Assembly (NCBI RefSeq): GCF_000021565.1
Contig: NC_012440.1
Coordinates: forward strand, 124,001 to 188,000
DNA from: Persephonella marina EX-H1
GTDB taxonomy: Bacteria; Aquificota; Aquificia; Aquificales; Hydrogenothermaceae
Direction of reading: 5' to 3'
Length of the DNA stretch: 64,000 bases
Within the stretch, counting starts at the first letter, position 1. Each line of letters begins with the position of its first letter. A model generated the notes under the pieces. That model was not told the DNA's origin. It saw only the letters and a program-made list of their open reading frames with translations, and did not search any database. The position numbers were made by a program, and so were the translations under genes. Below, piece after piece: positions 42,656 to 49,330 of the stretch.

Positions 42656-42969
42656 TATCTTTTCTTGTAACAGTCCAATTCTTTATCCTCTCCTGTTCAA
42701 AGAAAGATTCAGAACTTTCCAAAGAAGATAAATGTAAACTGGTATACAAGGTTTACTCTGACTGCTACTACGGCTCTTACTTTATTGAGGATCCATCAAA
42801 CTGTACAGGACTGAGTAACGGTTTTTACAAGGTTTTAAAAAAGGAAGGATACGGGACAGACATACTGGAAAAGGCTAAATCTGTCTGTTATACAGGATGT
42901 AATCAGTCTGTAAATAAAAGAAAGATAGATCCCTACAAAGAGTTTAAGAAGAAACACTGCTTTTTCTGA
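42637..42969 (+). CDS. small cysteine-rich lipoprotein
   Basis: Not recognised by function. If read from TTG 42637, the 110-residue product begins with an ideal lipoprotein signal peptide (Arg at 3, hydrophobic core, FILSC with lipid-carrying C20). A charged mature part follows with six more cysteines (KCKL, SDCYY, SNCTG, SVCYTGC, KHCFF), suggesting disulfides. The longer in-frame ATG at 42514 lies inside atpD and would hide the signal peptide. No clear Shine-Dalgarno site exists; the start lies in the atp terminator loop, so expression would need readthrough or a special mechanism. The 3' end overlaps the convergent tsaD by 26 bp. Confidence 0.62.
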   Translation: MSRLFIVSFLVTVQFFILSCSKKDSELSKEDKCKLVYKVYSDCYYGSYFIEDPSNCTGLSNGFYKVLKKEGYGTDILEKAKSVCYTGCNQSVNKRKIDPYKEFKKKHCFF

Positions 42970-43978
42970 TGATCTCTACAAACTTATCCATTCTTAATCT
43001 TGCCTTTCCCTCAAAGCTATAATCTACAGTTGTTCCACTCTCTTTAAACCTTTTGTATCCTGTGAATGCAACCATTGCTCCGTTATCTGTACAGAGGTAT
43101 AAAGGTGGGAAGTACGCCTTTATTCCGTGATTCTCTTCAGCTTCTTTGAACTTTTCCCTCAGTCTTGAGTTTGCAGACACACCACCAGCTATGACCACAT
43201 TTTTTATATTAAACTCTTTCATTGCATCTATCGTTTTAGCCAGAAGAACGTCAGTTGCAGCTTCCTGGAATGATCTTGCTATATCTTCCTTCCTGTAAAC
43301 TCCTTTCTGTATCTCTCTAAGAACAGCTGTTTTCAGACCGCTGAATGAGAAGTTAAACCTGTTTTTACCTCTATCATTGATAAGTGGTCTTGGTAGTTTT
43401 ACTGTATCTTCTCCTTCCTTTGAAAGCCTGTCTATAACCGGTCCACCAGGGTATCCAAGCCCAAGCATTCTTGCCACTTTGTCATAAGCCTCTCCAACAG
43501 CATCATCAAGTGTTCCGCCTAAATACCTGTAATCCTCAAAACCTTTTATCAGGTAAAGCTCTGTATGACCACCTGAAACAACAAGGGCTATAAAAGGGTA
43601 ATCTATCTTCTCTGTGATAAAAGATGCAAAAATATGAGCTTCTATGTGGTGGACAGGGATGAGAGGTTTTCTGTATATCCAGCTTAACGTTTTTGCAACG
43701 GATATTCCTATAACGAGGGATACTATCAGACCTGGTGCCACAGTTACGGCTATTCCATCAATATCCTTTATATTTACAGACGCTTCTTTTAAAGCCCTGT
43801 CAAGAACAGGTATTATATTCTTTGTGTGTTCCCTTGCAGCTAAATCAGGGTAAACGCCTCCCCATTCCTCATGCATCTTTATCTGGGAGGAGACAACATT
43901 TGATAGAAGACCTTCCTCACTGTCATATACTGATACAGCTGTATCATCACAGGAAGTCTCTATACCCAGTATCTTCAT
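42944..43978 (-). CDS. tsaD: tRNA N6-adenosine threonylcarbamoyltransferase
   Basis: Catalytic subunit for the t6A37 modification of ANN-reading tRNAs. ASKHA fold in 344 aa, with GIETSCDDTAVSVYD at the N-terminus, the metal-binding HHIEAH, VVSGGHTELYL and GGTLDDAVGEAYDKVARMLG. GGVSANSRLREKF comes near the end. Its ATG overlaps the ctpA stop by 4 bp. TsaB, TsaC and TsaE are not in the window. Confidence 0.97.
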   Translation of the reverse strand: MKILGIETSCDDTAVSVYDSEEGLLSNVVSSQIKMHEEWGGVYPDLAAREHTKNIIPVLDRALKEASVNIKDIDGIAVTVAPGLIVSLVIGISVAKTLSWIYRKPLIPVHHIEAHIFASFITEKIDYPFIALVVSGGHTELYLIKGFEDYRYLGGTLDDAVGEAYDKVARMLGLGYPGGPVIDRLSKEGEDTVKLPRPLINDRGKNRFNFSFSGLKTAVLREIQKGVYRKEDIARSFQEAATDVLLAKTIDAMKEFNIKNVVIAGGVSANSRLREKFKEAEENHGIKAYFPPLYLCTDNGAMVAFTGYKRFKESGTTVDYSFEGKARLRMDKFVEIIRKSSVSS

Positions 43979-45207
43979 TTAGCTTCTTTACGGGCGAAGT
44001 TAAGTATTTTTATGGCGTTTATCGCTGTATCAAGCTGTGGATCAACTATCTTTACCTTTTCTTCACCTTTTATTTTAGCTTCCCTTTCAGCTTTTATCCT
44101 TTCCATCTCTTCCTCTTCAGTCATATGGACAACGATATCAGGTGTTATACCTTTGTTCATTATGAGCTTTCCGCTTGGTGTATAGTAATGTGCTGTCGTA
44201 ATCTTAAGTCCTGCACCATCAGGTAAAGGTATCAATGTCTGGACCGATGCTTTACCAAATGTCTGATCACCTACCGCTAAAGCTCTATTGTTGTCCCTTA
44301 AAGCTCCTGTTAGAATCTCCGAAGCACTTGCAGAACCTTTATTCACAATAACAACTATAGGGATATCATCCGGGATAATAGGTGAAGATGTTGAGTAGTA
44401 CTCCTCATTTGCCCTTGGGTCCCTTCCTTTTGTGTAAACAATTAGCTTTCCTTTATCAAGGAGCATATCTGCTATCTCAACAGCTGTTGATAGAAGACCA
44501 CCAGGATTGTTCCTTAGATCTATAATTATTCCATCTTTATCTTTGAATTTTTTAAGTGCCTTTTCAAACTCCTCTGCTGAGTTTTCCTGGAACTGTGTAA
44601 GTCTTATATATCCTATCTTTCCGTCTTCAAGCTCTTTTGTTTTGACACTCTTTATCTTTATTATTGCTCTTGTTATTGTGACCTTAAAAGGCTTCTCTAC
44701 ACCTTTCCTCCATATTGTAAGTGTAATCTTTGTTCCAGGCTTACCTCTCATCTTTTTGACAGCCTGCATAAGAGTCATCTTGTCTGTAGGTTCTCCATCT
44801 ATCTCTATAATAATATCTCCTGCCTTTAATCCAGCTTTCCATGCAGGTGTATCTTCAATAGGAGCTACTATTATCAGCTTGTGGTTTTCCATAGTTATCT
44901 CTATTCCAAGACCACCAAACTCACCATGTGTTTCTGTTGTAAAATCTTTGAACTCATCAGGTGTAAAGAATGTTGAGTATGGATCAAGTGAATGTAACAT
45001 ACCCCTTAAAGAGCCGTATATAAGTTTTTTACTGTCTACAGGCTCAACATAGTAATCCTTTACGATCTTGAATACTTCTGTATATAAACCTATCAGCTTT
45101 AGATCTTTTTCAATATCCTTTGTATCGGTCTTTGCGCTAAGTCCAAAGTTTACACCAGCTATAAATACAAGAATTACACCAACGAACAGGGAAAGTCTGC
45201 TTTTCAT
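43975..45207 (-). CDS. ctpA: carboxyl-terminal processing protease (S41 family)
   Basis: Periplasmic or envelope serine protease with a Ser-Lys dyad. An N-terminal signal or anchor helix (about 4-25) precedes the PDZ domain (about 90-175; GLGIEITMENHKLIIVAPIE, AGLKAGDIIIEIDG). The protease domain has the nucleophile in GSASASEILTGAL and the lysine in QTFGKASVQT. Length 410 aa. GGAG lies before the ATG. It is upstream of and overlaps tsaD. Confidence 0.94.
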   Translation of the reverse strand: MKSRLSLFVGVILVFIAGVNFGLSAKTDTKDIEKDLKLIGLYTEVFKIVKDYYVEPVDSKKLIYGSLRGMLHSLDPYSTFFTPDEFKDFTTETHGEFGGLGIEITMENHKLIIVAPIEDTPAWKAGLKAGDIIIEIDGEPTDKMTLMQAVKKMRGKPGTKITLTIWRKGVEKPFKVTITRAIIKIKSVKTKELEDGKIGYIRLTQFQENSAEEFEKALKKFKDKDGIIIDLRNNPGGLLSTAVEIADMLLDKGKLIVYTKGRDPRANEEYYSTSSPIIPDDIPIVVIVNKGSASASEILTGALRDNNRALAVGDQTFGKASVQTLIPLPDGAGLKITTAHYYTPSGKLIMNKGITPDIVVHMTEEEEMERIKAEREAKIKGEEKVKIVDPQLDTAINAIKILNFARKEAK

Positions 45208-45262: not shown

Positions 45263-47314
45263 TCAAAGAAATTTTGATTCCGGATAACCAAGGTGAAAAC
45301 CCTGACCGTAATCTATACCTATATTCTTTAGAATTTTTAAAATATCTTCATTTTCTATTGATTCTGCAACCGTTTTTATGTTCAGTCTTTTACATAGCAG
45401 ATCCATACTCTCAACAAAGGCTATACTTTTAGGATCGGAGGGTTTAAGCTCTCTTATAAACTCCCCATCTATCTTTACATAATCTATGGGAAAATACTTT
45501 AAATAATAAAATGATGAGTAACCGCTTCCAAAATCATCAATCGCAAAACCAAAACCTTTGTCCTTGAGTTTTACTATTAATGCCTGAACTTCAGCTGTTT
45601 CCTTTACAGCCTCCCTTTCTGTAAGCTCGAAAACGATCTCCTCAGGATCTATATTCAGATCATTTACTACTGAGAATATGTACTGCCAGAAAGAATCGTC
45701 TGATATATCTTTTGCTGAAAGATTCAAAAACAGTTTTTCTTTAAGATCATTTTCTTTCTTTTCAGTAAGAGCTTTTTTAATTATTGTTTTGTCTATATCT
45801 TTAATCTTTCCAAGCTTTTCTGCGAGGGATATAAACCTGTAAGCTGATATAACCTCTCCTTTTTCATCCTTTAGTCTGGCAAGAACCTCATAGGCATGAA
45901 CGTTATCATTTTTCAGATCGTATATCGGCTGAAAATAAGGTACGAAAAGTTCCTTGTCTATAGCTTCCTGCAGGATTGAAAACTCCTTTCTTTTCTCTTT
46001 TATAGTTTTTTCTATCTCCTCATGTGTTGGAACGTAAACTTTGTTTTTTCCAAGATCCTTTGCTCTGTAAAGGGCATTATCAACAACCATCATAAGTTCT
46101 TCTTTGGTTGTTCCATGTGTTGGGAATTCAACAACTCCCAGAGAGGCGCTTACAGATATTACTGCTCCCTCAAATATACAGAGTTTGTTGTTCTCAAGAT
46201 TTTTTCTTATTCTTTCAGCAACGATCAGGGCTTTTTCAAGCTCTGTTTCACTTAGAAGAATAACGAACTCATCTCCTCCTATCCTTGCAACCAGATCACC
46301 ATCTCTTATTGATGCCTCAAGTATGTCAGCAACAGATTTTAGAACTATATCCCCTATGTGATGACCGTATGTATCGTTAATATACTTAAAGTTATCAAGA
46401 TCAATGAGTATTAATGAAAATTTATAATTTTTTCTTTTAGCTCTACTTACCTCGTATTTTAAAAGATCCTCAAATATTCTCCTGTTATAAAGATCAGTTA
46501 ATGGATCATGGCCTGCAAAATATTCAAGTTCTGTTATAGCTTTGGATAAAGCTCTTGATGAACCTGTTACAAGTGTCATTATTGAAAGGATTGAGTTTAA
46601 TATATTTATATCTTTTCTTGATAGCCTTTCTTCAGGTAGAACTATAAGTCCAAGAGTACCTCCTATTCCAGGAGAATCTGGCAAAAACTGGTGGGTTTCA
46701 ATATGTATCTTTTTAATTTCCTTTCTTCGGGATTTATTTGATATGTATATCTCTTCAAAATCCAGATTCCTGTAAGGATTTTTCTTAAAGTTTTTAACCA
46801 CATTCTCAGTGAGGTATACTTTAATCTCCTCTTTGAGATCATCAGGGGGTATATAGCTGTAGAATATATAAAATTTTATTGTGTTATCTTCCTCAAACAT
46901 AAAGAAAAACAGATCGTAAGGGTATATAGCCCTTAACTTTCTTAATATCTCCTTTGCATACCCCTTCCAGTCCATAATATTTTCCCTGGAAAGGACTATC
47001 TCCTTCAGTATCTTTGTTTCTTCCTGAAGAAGTTTTTTATCAACAACCTCTTTTTCAAGGAGAAGAATAAGATCTATAGCCCTTATACTTCCGTCTTTAA
47101 CAAGCTGTATGTTGTAATTCAGATTTTTCTCAAACTCCTCAAGTATAAGATCGCAGGACTGCTCTTTAAACTCTTGGGGTTCTGAAAGACTTTTTATCTC
47201 CCTCCTGAGACCTTTTATCAGGGAGTTATATTTAAGTAAATTTTCTATTACAGTTCCACTTTTTAATGCGAGCTCTTTTCTTAAGTTCTCAAAATTAAGA
47301 TTTTTCCTGCTCAA
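45263..47314 (-). CDS. GGDEF-EAL cyclic di-GMP enzyme
   Basis: Bifunctional-looking c-di-GMP protein of 683 aa without membrane segments, so cytoplasmic. An N-terminal helical region (1-115) and a GAF-like sensor (about 115-255) precede the diguanylate cyclase domain. The latter has GGDEF intact at 346-350 and an inhibitory RxxD (RDGD, 337-340) exactly five residues before it. The EAL domain follows (about 445-683), in which EAL reads EVL (476-478), while N531, E563, D593/D594, K614 and E651 are present. Both activities are plausible. The TTG start overlaps the stop of the upstream metallo-beta-lactamase-fold gene by 4 bp. Confidence 0.93.
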   Translation of the reverse strand: MSRKNLNFENLRKELALKSGTVIENLLKYNSLIKGLRREIKSLSEPQEFKEQSCDLILEEFEKNLNYNIQLVKDGSIRAIDLILLLEKEVVDKKLLQEETKILKEIVLSRENIMDWKGYAKEILRKLRAIYPYDLFFFMFEEDNTIKFYIFYSYIPPDDLKEEIKVYLTENVVKNFKKNPYRNLDFEEIYISNKSRRKEIKKIHIETHQFLPDSPGIGGTLGLIVLPEERLSRKDINILNSILSIMTLVTGSSRALSKAITELEYFAGHDPLTDLYNRRIFEDLLKYEVSRAKRKNYKFSLILIDLDNFKYINDTYGHHIGDIVLKSVADILEASIRDGDLVARIGGDEFVILLSETELEKALIVAERIRKNLENNKLCIFEGAVISVSASLGVVEFPTHGTTKEELMMVVDNALYRAKDLGKNKVYVPTHEEIEKTIKEKRKEFSILQEAIDKELFVPYFQPIYDLKNDNVHAYEVLARLKDEKGEVISAYRFISLAEKLGKIKDIDKTIIKKALTEKKENDLKEKLFLNLSAKDISDDSFWQYIFSVVNDLNIDPEEIVFELTEREAVKETAEVQALIVKLKDKGFGFAIDDFGSGYSSFYYLKYFPIDYVKIDGEFIRELKPSDPKSIAFVESMDLLCKRLNIKTVAESIENEDILKILKNIGIDYGQGFHLGYPESKFL

Positions 47315-48048
47315 AATAGATCAACTCCACATTTTAGATCGTAAAGGTACTTTAGAAGTTTATCCACATTCTCCCCCTTAAACAGATAACCATGCTGTGG
47401 AGCTATTATATCTACATCTAACTTTTCTACCCTCTTTACCCATTTTCTTAAGGCCTCGTTTGAGGCCATATACCTTTTATGAAAACTATCTATACACTTA
47501 ACATACTCCTCAAAATCCTCAACAAAAAGTTTGTTTTCTGAACATGGGAGAAGACCTGCTCCAATATCCCCTGTGAAAAGTATCTTTGATACAGGATCGT
47601 AAACATTAACATGACCTGGTGAGTGTAAAAAATGGGCGGGAATTATTTTAAGCTTCAGCCTCTCATCCACCTCTAAATCCATCCCTTCATCTGGTATTCC
47701 GTATATCTGGTCTGTCCTTTTAATATCGTAATGGGGGATGAACCTCAGCCATAATTTTGATATATAGGCTTTCGCATTTGTCATCTCAAGCCAAATATTC
47801 AGACCCCCGCAGATATCCGGATCCTGATGTGAAAGAATTATAGCTTTTATATTGTTAAGTTTTGTGTATTTCAGTATTCTTGAGAGGAGTATCGGGAACA
47901 GACCAAACCCTCCCGGATCCAGTATTATACCTTTATTATTGTGAACAATAAGATACTGGTTTGATGGTATTCCTAGCTCTTCCTTGCTCTCTGCGAAACC
48001 CAGTAAAATAAATTTGTGGTTCTTTGAGTCAAAAAGGATCTTATCCAT
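47311..48048 (-). CDS. metallo-beta-lactamase-fold di-iron (ODP-like) protein
   Basis: A 245-residue stand-alone metallo-beta-lactamase domain resembling the oxygen-binding di-iron domain of flavodiiron proteins. It has no flavodoxin domain. Metal ligands are seen in SHQDPD (H74, D76, D78), HSPGH (H146), FTGDIGAG (D161) and APQHG near 220. It precedes and overlaps the GGDEF-EAL gene by 4 bp, so the two are made together. An O2 or NO sensing role feeding c-di-GMP output is inferred from context only; hydrolase activity is possible. Confidence 0.85.
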   Translation of the reverse strand: MDKILFDSKNHKFILLGFAESKEELGIPSNQYLIVHNNKGIILDPGGFGLFPILLSRILKYTKLNNIKAIILSHQDPDICGGLNIWLEMTNAKAYISKLWLRFIPHYDIKRTDQIYGIPDEGMDLEVDERLKLKIIPAHFLHSPGHVNVYDPVSKILFTGDIGAGLLPCSENKLFVEDFEEYVKCIDSFHKRYMASNEALRKWVKRVEKLDVDIIAPQHGYLFKGENVDKLLKYLYDLKCGVDLF

Positions 48049-48154
48049 AAGATTACCTTGTAAAATTATTAAGTGTTACTAAGAATTTTCGGAAGTAAGC
48101 TGAATCTATTTAATATATAATAGGGAAAGTTTAAAAAACTGCTGAAGGAGTAAG

Positions 48155-49330
48155 ATGGGCACACTCAGATTTTTAAATGCTGGAGAGTCACATGGACCTG
48201 CCCTGACCGCAATTATTGAGGGGCTTCCTTCAAATCTCAGGATATCATCTGAGTTTATAAACAGGGAGCTTTCAAGAAGACAGTCCGGATACGGTCGTGG
48301 CGGAAGGATGAAGATAGAAAAGGACAGAGTTGAGATACTCTCAGGTGTCAGATTTGGGTATACACTTGGGTCTCCTGTAACACTTATGGTAAGAAATAAA
48401 GACTGGGAGAACTGGACTGATATTATGGCTGTGGAAGGACAACCTACAGAAAAGAAGGAGATCACAAATCCCCGTCCAGGTCATGCTGATCTTCCAGGGG
48501 GGATAAAGTACGGATTTCACGATCTTAGAAATGTTCTTGAGAGGGCAAGTGCAAGGGAAACCACGACAAGGGTTGCTGTTGGTGCTGTATGTAAACAGCT
48601 TCTTGAGGATATAGGTATAAGAATAGGAAGCTATGTTGTTTCAATAGGTGAGATTTCACTGAGGGATAGGATAAAGGATATTCCCCTTGAGGAAAGATTT
48701 GAAAAGGCAGAAAGTTCTGAGGTTAGAACACCTTTACCTGAGCTTGATCAAGAATTTAAAGAACTGATAGATAGGGCAAGGGAGGAAGGTGAAAGTCTTG
48801 GAGGTGTGTTTGAGGTTTTTGCTGTTGGTGTTCCTGTCGGTCTAGGGAGTCATGTTCACTGGGATAGAAGGCTTGATGGAAGAATAGCACAGGCAATGAT
48901 GAGTATCCAGGCAATGAAAGGTGTTGAGATAGGTGAAGGATTCAGCCTTGCAGAGATGTATGGTTCTCAGGCCCATGACGAGATTTTCTGGGATAAGGAA
49001 AGAGGTTTTTACCACAGAACAAACAGGGCAGGTGGGATTGAAGGAGGAATAACAAACGGAGAACCAATATTAGTCAGGGTAGGTATGAAGCCTATACCTA
49101 CACTTATGAGAAGAAAATCACTCAGATCTGTAAATATAAAAACGAAACAGCCATTTGATGCAGCAAAGGAGAGATCTGATGTGACAGCTGTACCGGCAGC
49201 AGCAGTTGTTGGTGAGGCGATGCTTGCAATAGTTCTTGCTCAGGCTGTTCTTGAGAAGTTTGGTAATGACAACTGGATAGATATAAAGAGAAGGATTGAA
49301 GAATACAGAGCATACACAAGGGAGTTTTAG
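48155..49330 (+). CDS. aroC: chorismate synthase
   Basis: Final shikimate-pathway step, making chorismate from EPSP with reduced FMN. Family motifs are GESHGPALTAIIEGLPS at the N-terminus, the RRQSGYGRGGRMKIE loop, GHADLPGGIKYGFHDLRN and RASARETTTRVAVGAV. The C-terminal part has the RSDVTAVPAAAVVGEAM segment. Length 391 aa. A TATAAT (48116-48121) lies 34 bases before the ATG. The atpB promoter begins at its stop codon. Confidence 0.97.
   Translation: MGTLRFLNAGESHGPALTAIIEGLPSNLRISSEFINRELSRRQSGYGRGGRMKIEKDRVEILSGVRFGYTLGSPVTLMVRNKDWENWTDIMAVEGQPTEKKEITNPRPGHADLPGGIKYGFHDLRNVLERASARETTTRVAVGAVCKQLLEDIGIRIGSYVVSIGEISLRDRIKDIPLEERFEKAESSEVRTPLPELDQEFKELIDRAREEGESLGGVFEVFAVGVPVGLGSHVHWDRRLDGRIAQAMMSIQAMKGVEIGEGFSLAEMYGSQAHDEIFWDKERGFYHRTNRAGGIEGGITNGEPILVRVGMKPIPTLMRRKSLRSVNIKTKQPFDAAKERSDVTAVPAAAVVGEAMLAIVLAQAVLEKFGNDNWIDIKRRIEEYRAYTREF

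Follow-up and report, generated by a model that had tools for sequence, protein, structure and literature searches.

The gene pair and the proteins it encodes

The subject of this analysis is a pair of genes in a stretch of 64,000 nucleotides from Persephonella marina EX-H1 (contig NC_012440.1, positions 124,001 to 188,000 of the forward strand; hereafter the window, meaning the whole stretch that was analysed), whose source genome (G000) comprises 1,983,966 bases in 2 contigs. The first gene encodes a small stand-alone protein of the ODP (oxygen-binding di-iron protein) family, and the second a GGDEF-EAL enzyme of cyclic di-GMP (c-di-GMP) metabolism. An initial annotation, made from the sequence of the window, had described both genes and an overlap of 4 bp between them, and the two open reading frames (ORFs) are indeed present at these positions, with TTGA as the shared bases (Table 1). 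It is plausible from this arrangement that both are made from one transcript in a near-fixed ratio.

The description of the small protein as a stand-alone ODP-like domain is borne out by its match to Pfam PF19583 (E 1e-77; 260.9 bits against a cut-off of 27.2), which covers profile positions 2-194 of 194, and its nearest solved structures, 6qrq (1e-76) and 6qnm (5.6e-71), are both named oxygen-binding di-iron protein. Flavodiiron-type structures follow far behind (3.3e-5 and weaker), and Pfam also reports a match to Lactamase_B at 1.7e-26. The initial annotation noted no flavodoxin partner, and within this ORF, to which our search was confined, Pfam likewise matched no flavodoxin domain.

Flavodiiron proteins carry the motif HxExDH, and zinc metallo-beta-lactamases and hydrolases the motif HxHxDH. 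In the window's ODP the predicted ligand positions are H74, D76, D78, H142, D161, Q218 and H219, with I79 at the position of the further flavodiiron His. The earlier statement that the metal ligands look complete thus holds by the standard of ODPs, at seven positions, but fails by that of flavodiiron proteins or zinc hydrolases, because of I79. The third His of motif 2 is reported to be replaced as a ligand in the Thermotoga maritima ODP by a Gln of motif 5 (PMC7785958), and we infer from its position that Q218 of the PQHG motif is the counterpart of this Gln. As predicted from sequence, the small protein has the complete ODP ligand set of HxDxD, H, D and QH, in which Gln replaces the flavodiiron His. 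No variation occurs at any of the seven positions in 105 ODPs (57 paired with the enzyme gene, 39 others and 9 fused to other domains), which are the rows of the 108-row tree described below other than L068, L074 and L077, and HQDPD is found at all 80 loci of a scan of GTDB contigs.

Three other assignments of the small protein were examined and do not hold. Membership of the flavodiiron proteins is contradicted by HQDPDI in place of HxExDH, by the length of 245 aa and by the lack of a flavodoxin match in the ORF; membership of the zinc metallo-beta-lactamases or hydrolases by the same HQDPDI, together with curated NCBIfam lactamase models that remain far below their cut-off; and membership of the chemoreceptor-coupled ODP subgroup by a gene neighbour that is a GGDEF-EAL enzyme and not a methyl-accepting chemotaxis protein.

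The enzyme matches EAL at 5.1e-65 and GGDEF at 6.5e-51 in Pfam. R337 and D340 of the I-site RxxD and the GGDEF residues 346-350, as well as E476, N531, E563, D593, D594, K614, E651 and Q671 of the EAL domain, are invariant in 49 of 49 homologous enzymes; given the usual roles of these residues, both synthesis and hydrolysis activities are probably kept. An AlphaFold model (mean pLDDT 83.4, pTM 0.49) places, in order, helices at residues 8-42, 48-89 and 93-108, an alpha/beta domain, a long helix at 233-269, GGDEF and EAL.

A GAF-like sensor had been proposed in the enzyme, and this we could not confirm. Pfam gives no GAF match in the window's enzyme at E values up to 0.1, and none in any of 38 homologues, and hhalign of the enzyme N-terminal part, a weak profile comparison with only three GAF domains, returned a probability of 0.2; the element order modelled for residues 113-258 is by itself compatible with GAF. 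The region before GGDEF matches no Pfam family in the window's enzyme, and three families once each, at chance level, among the 38 homologues. Foldseek and VIA-align searches with the 683-residue model returned lists filled by GGDEF-EAL chains, of which only those of DosP aligned from about residue 92, and a search of the N-terminal profile against PDB sequences found no plausible relative, the best match (E 0.061) being an interferon. Among 61 aligned N-termini (of 76 enzymes, 5 broken or short and 10 failing a motif filter having been left out) no Cys/His set suggesting a cofactor of the enzyme's own was seen; one His column is 87% conserved, with Arg 110 in the window, and His 269 beside GGDEF is invariant. 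The helical N-terminus, on which the initial annotation was silent, looks more telling than the GAF-like part.

Table 1. Positions within the window of the gene pair, its subregions and the neighbouring genes.
Feature	Position	Strand	Remarks
ODP-family protein, stand-alone, 245 aa, ATG start	47311..48048	(-)	PF19583 E 1e-77
ODP codons 74-79, H-Q-D-P-D-I	47812..47829	(-)	three predicted metal-ligand positions and Ile at the flavodiiron His position
ODP codons 218-219, Q-H of PQHG	47392..47397	(-)	Gln that probably replaces the missing His, and last predicted His ligand
GGDEF-EAL enzyme, 683 aa, TTG start	45263..47314	(-)	Pfam; no strong transmembrane segment predicted by hydropathy scan
Overlap of the two genes, 4 bp, TTGA	47311..47314		stop TGA of the ODP gene shares bases with start TTG of the enzyme gene
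Helical N-terminal element, enzyme residues 1-110	46985..47314	(-)	putative ODP-docking part
Alpha/beta domain and start of signalling helix, residues 113-258	46541..46978	(-)	AlphaFold model; no Pfam family
GGDEF domain with I-site RxxD, Pfam residues 268-425	46040..46513	(-)	
EAL domain, complete catalytic set, Pfam residues 448-676	45287..45973	(-)	
Carboxy-terminal-protease-like gene	43975..45207	(-)	downstream of the pair; name given from sequence
tsaD-like gene	42944..43978	(-)	downstream of the pair; name given from sequence
Chorismate-synthase-like gene	48155..49330		diverging, upstream of the pair; name given from sequence

Conservation of the pair

Matches to the ODP profile occur in all 61 genomes examined from P. 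marina itself, its family and its order, 55 of them over the cut-off. Many of these matches represent further ODPs or distant proteins with this fold, and 40 regions surrounding such matches were inspected. The enzyme type of about 680 aa is present in six of the 61 genomes and adjoins an ODP gene in all six, a further partial match in G023 lying at a contig edge. Separation of the two genes in relatives, which the initial annotation had named as a refutation, is therefore not what was observed, and further afield the pair is retained at 75 of 80 loci. The ODP gene always comes first, with the 4-bp overlap, in G000, G020, G027, G034 and G036, and at L033, L035, L037, L039 and L071 the protease-like and tsaD-like genes that adjoin it in the window recur beside the pair. 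In the sixth genome with the enzyme, G011, the adjoining ODP is divided between two contigs, the ends of which are identical over 251 bp. The gene row of this member of the Hydrogenothermaceae (L079 590-4962 with L220) runs without gaps through a protoglobin-PAS-GAF-GGDEF-EAL protein, a PilZ protein, the ODP and the GGDEF-EAL enzyme, and combines two O2-type inputs and a c-di-GMP receptor.

The scan of GTDB contigs was evaluated at its 80 closest loci, which are the best 80 of 540 confirmed relatives and come from 77 accession prefixes, three assemblies giving two loci each. A homologous GGDEF-EAL gene lies directly downstream on the same strand at 75 of them. The gap between the genes is -11 to +18 bp at 74 of these 75, with 43 at 0 or overlapping, and 232 bp at L136 for the start chosen; the partner gene is interrupted in frame at L113, L115 and L148 and short in its EAL part at L144. 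Two of the five misses, L079 and L138, are loci that end at a contig edge (L079 being the G011 contig, with the partner on the other contig), and in L074 (Omnitrophus magneticus) only the start of the partner is kept; at the remaining two, L077 and L078, the ODP is unlinked. By record title the 80 loci belong to Aquificota, Nitrospirota, Omnitrophota and Pseudomonadota, with methanotrophs, Gallionellaceae, Persephonella and magnetotactic Nitrospirota among their sources. Of these phyla Omnitrophota has just the broken remnant of the pair, which the other three keep. When the enzyme N-terminal profile was run on 16 genomes, the best match was the ODP-adjacent gene in 14, the other two being the genomes of L077 and L078. 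Two methanotroph genomes have a second, more distant ODP (L104 9644-10375 and L207 3161-3889; 40% identity to that of the window) besides the paired one.

Restriction of the pairing to one ODP subgroup

Of 200 genomes that were taken without selection from the phylum of G073 as a control, 76 have an ODP alignment match at E 1e-15 or better and 7 a match to the enzyme N-terminal profile. A full-length N-terminal match was seen in four genomes, which are exactly those holding the four ODPs with the strongest scores (E 1.5e-91 or better), and there the two genes are directly adjacent. The remaining three N-terminal matches cover the profile only in part and come from CxxCH enzymes, whose loci of about 3.6 kb contain no ODP. 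By tblastn, GGDEF was found beside all four strong ODPs (L159-L162), and neither GGDEF nor EAL beside any of 26 more distant ODPs (L163-L188; 1.5-kb flanks where the contig allows). This difference indicates that pairing is a property of one ODP subgroup. Several of the distant ODPs (L163, L166, L168-L173 and L176) have an ORF of 121 aa downstream and often one of about 130 aa upstream, which suggests another conserved ODP neighbourhood.

In agreement with this restriction, an ODP tree of 108 rows, in which 52 of the 80 loci were used (after a cut at 88% identity and without L079 and L138) and which was built by a quick method with long branches flagged, placed the 57 paired ODPs within one group of 60 rows (SH-aLRT 99). 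The group also contains L077 (unlinked), L074 (broken) and L068; outside it fall the two PDB ODPs, the fused ODPs and L032. The last is the second ODP of the window's own genome (G000:C2:635129-635704; L032 5510-6292), which lies 2 bp from an rsmH-like gene, with ftsL/ftsI-like genes near (names from sequence), and is not beside a GGDEF-EAL gene. Distances among the paired ODPs follow those among their partners closely (r 0.96 for 48 pairs, against a maximum of 0.385 in 2000 permutations), a co-divergence that demonstrates joint inheritance and not contact.

A sensor-effector relation predicts fusions of ODP to effectors, and such proteins exist. GGDEF proteins with an N-terminal ODP occur at L041 (in G030, from the same family), as well as at L196 and L202 according to Pfam and at L197, L199 and L201 according to BLAST, and ODP is likewise N-terminal in two kinase-type proteins (L198 and L200; Pfam). 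One further protein (L195 970-3423) has, again by Pfam, an N-terminal ODP joined to a class III adenylate/guanylate cyclase domain, and is a possible iron/gas-controlled cAMP or cGMP enzyme.

A probable two-protein c-di-GMP signalling module

We consider it probable that the ODP and the GGDEF-EAL enzyme form a two-protein c-di-GMP signalling module, in which the ODP serves in trans as a sensor subunit for O2 and Fe(II), or nitric oxide (NO). The proposal of the initial annotation, a two-protein gas-sensing module controlling c-di-GMP, is thereby supported in part. The Treponema denticola ODP is described as binding iron and oxygen, as genetically coupled to a receptor without a sensing module and as influencing the kinase array (PMC7666581, PMC6978683), and by analogy the window's ODP may do for a c-di-GMP enzyme what that protein does for its receptor. 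The putative di-iron site would take up Fe(II) and reversibly bind O2, and possibly NO; the state of the ODP would then alter its contact with the soluble enzyme, most likely via the helical N-terminus of the latter, and this change in contact would shift the enzyme between making and breaking c-di-GMP, in either direction. Consistent with such a module are the pairing itself, the gene order and overlap, the conservation and co-divergence, the intact ligand and catalytic residues, the fusions, and the position of the pair in G011, where it follows the protoglobin-PAS-GAF-GGDEF-EAL and PilZ genes without gaps.

Several observations weigh against this interpretation, which is built on sequence and models. 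Co-inheritance of the ODP and the enzyme does not prove contact, and an AlphaFold model of the two proteins tethered together has good domains, an unstructured link, a pTM of 0.37 and no usable interface. At L077 and L078 the ODP is unlinked and enzyme homologues of 685 and 687 aa lie elsewhere in the genomes. No GGDEF-EAL gene lies in the 12-kb locus of L068 either, a member of the paired ODP group whose genome (G057) is without a partner match. The enzyme's own alpha/beta domain could be a sensor of something else. Finally, scores against a profile built from the first 90 residues of ODP-linked enzymes do not set linked and unlinked proteins clearly apart, with 13.5 bits for the linked enzyme of G011 against 9.2 and 7.7 for the unlinked L203 and L204 and 9.3 for the unrelated control L120.

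Among the alternatives, the same site of the ODP might serve to sense another cue, be it free Fe(II), the redox state or peroxide, and O2 would be no more than a disturbance. In PMC7666581 the work of Muok 2019 is listed under a title that calls the T. denticola ODP an Fe(II) and oxygen sensor, and the record titles of our loci include iron oxidiser families, for example Gallionellaceae; nothing in the present data sets this possibility apart from O2 sensing, however, and as a variant of the proposed module we regard it as unlikely to be the better account. It is similarly improbable that the ODP consumes O2 or NO as a small protective oxidase or reductase, its expression together with the enzyme reflecting a need for both at one O2 level: distant kinship to the flavodiiron O2/NO reductases speaks for such a role, but no flavodoxin domain was matched within the ORF, to which the search for an electron donor was confined, and the protein goes with one enzyme type as a constant partner in several phyla and occurs in fusions to signalling outputs. 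Many proteins of the metallo-beta-lactamase (MBL) fold are hydrolases, and this fold, together with the Lactamase_B match of 1.7e-26, could be taken to make the ODP a pathway enzyme that hydrolyses c-di-GMP, pGpG or a related molecule and is co-made with the GGDEF-EAL protein. The ODP-type ligand set, with Asp and Gln replacing hydrolase His (PMC7785958), renders this quite unlikely. The same follows from the fusions of ODP to kinases and class III cyclases, in which a role as c-di-GMP hydrolase makes little sense. A neighbourhood that arose by chance, or that serves shared transcription only, would be compatible with the overlap alone, such overlaps being common in compact genomes, but was rejected as highly improbable given the fixed order at 75 of the 80 closest loci, despite a total of just 26 GGDEF matches in the window's own genome, against 0 of 26 distant ODP loci with GGDEF or EAL, the confinement of adjacency to one ODP group and the natural ODP-GGDEF fusions.

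Relation to known sensory systems

Among the known systems closest to the proposed module are the chemoreceptor ODPs (T. denticola TDE2498/TDE2496 and T. maritima), in which, as described, a stand-alone ODP is also encoded with a signalling protein without a recognised sensor (PMC7666581, PMC6978683, PMC7785958, PMC7319448), and which have the same ligand set and the nearest solved structures. Their partner, however, is a chemoreceptor, in contrast to the GGDEF-EAL enzyme of the window, and the PDB ODPs fall outside the paired group. The groups outlined by Muok et al. 2019 comprise ODPs in chemoreceptor operons, in operons with different signal-transduction genes and fused to signalling domains (PMC7319448); this is the same idea of an ODP recruited to other pathways, and these groups may include GGDEF-EAL partners. 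Di-iron control of c-di-GMP metabolism, as proposed here, is reported for hemerythrin-GGDEF (V. cholerae) and hemerythrin-HD-GYP (Ferrovum) proteins, which differ from ODP in fold and are fused in cis, and O2 control of GGDEF/EAL enzymes for DosP/PdeO (PAS) and DosC/DgcO (protoglobin), which unlike ODP are heme sensors, again fused in cis (PMC8846402); chains of DosP align with the model of the enzyme from about residue 92.

The O2 sensors described in the 2022 census of c-di-GMP inputs include heme PAS, protoglobin and hemerythrin (PMC8846402), and text searches of this census and of a 2026 aerotaxis review (PMC13401364) found no word starting with ODP or lactamase. Our literature searches did not find an ODP acting on c-di-GMP among the matches listed, although the supplement of Muok et al. 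2019 may contain such an operon. The novelty is not in the sensor family or in the output, both of which are known, but in a widely conserved coupling of the two for which these searches found no experiment. If the proposal is correct, control in trans of a c-di-GMP enzyme by a non-heme iron protein encoded apart from it would be a new kind of O2/iron input, occurring in organisms of oxic-anoxic boundaries, through which O2 or iron levels would be turned into a decision to swim or settle, and a gene pair conserved at 75 loci would have a testable function. With sensor and enzyme on two polypeptides, the transfer of a signal between them could be measured by mixing the two.

CxxCH sister enzymes and a possible exchange of front ends

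Paralogues of the ODP partner with a CxxCH motif are 844-880 aa long (one open frame reaches 965) and have the later linker, alpha/beta, GGDEF and EAL parts in common with it. The motif, as a rule near residue 140-180 but at 256 in L218, is present in 11 of 12 paralogue frames read, against none of 75 ODP-linked enzymes; the twelfth frame (L219) is a 147-aa piece. Transmembrane-like segments precede and follow the motif in all six paralogues scanned for hydropathy. The window's own genome encodes such an enzyme of 847 aa with transmembrane-like segments and the same output core (G000:C2:947883-950426; L222 884-3427). An input of comparable kind is sCache_heme (DUF3365/Tll0287), reported as an NO-binding sensor of kinases, chemoreceptors and c-di-GMP enzymes (PMC12889525); the CxxCH motif before the output core of the paralogues recalls this family, and an input of this type would be membrane-bound, heme-type and in cis, unlike ODP. 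The Pfam family Tll0287-like matches the CxxCH enzymes below its cut-off only, in 2 of 7 scanned (L205 and L206).

A tree of the last 430 residues of 49 ODP-linked enzymes and 7 CxxCH paralogues, also quick and with long branches flagged, groups both kinds together against five other GGDEF-EAL proteins (100) and places the Nitrospirota ODP-linked enzymes L084, L091 and L096 within the CxxCH kind (99). With the 90-residue N-terminal profile of the other ODP-linked enzymes, five Nitrospirota partners score 14.8-21.8 bits, whereas none of seven CxxCH enzymes exceeds 3.7 bits, and this difference suggests, as a lead and not a proof, that the helical N-terminal element travels with the ODP. We tentatively put forward the possibility that one c-di-GMP core of linker, alpha/beta, GGDEF and EAL parts has interchangeable metal-based front ends, either a membrane-anchored CxxCH heme-type input in cis or a cytosolic di-iron ODP in trans via a helical docking element, and that in Nitrospirota the ODP and docking element sit on a heme-lineage core as a portable trans gas-sensor cassette.

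Genomic setting

FNR-like sites number 62 in the window against 73 expected from shuffling, with none within the gap at 48049-48154. The genome has a c-di-GMP network that could receive a signal from the pair, with 26 GGDEF matches in 1.98 Mb and 5 PilZ matches, and a structure is available for an HD-GYP phosphodiesterase of P. marina (PMC4159591).

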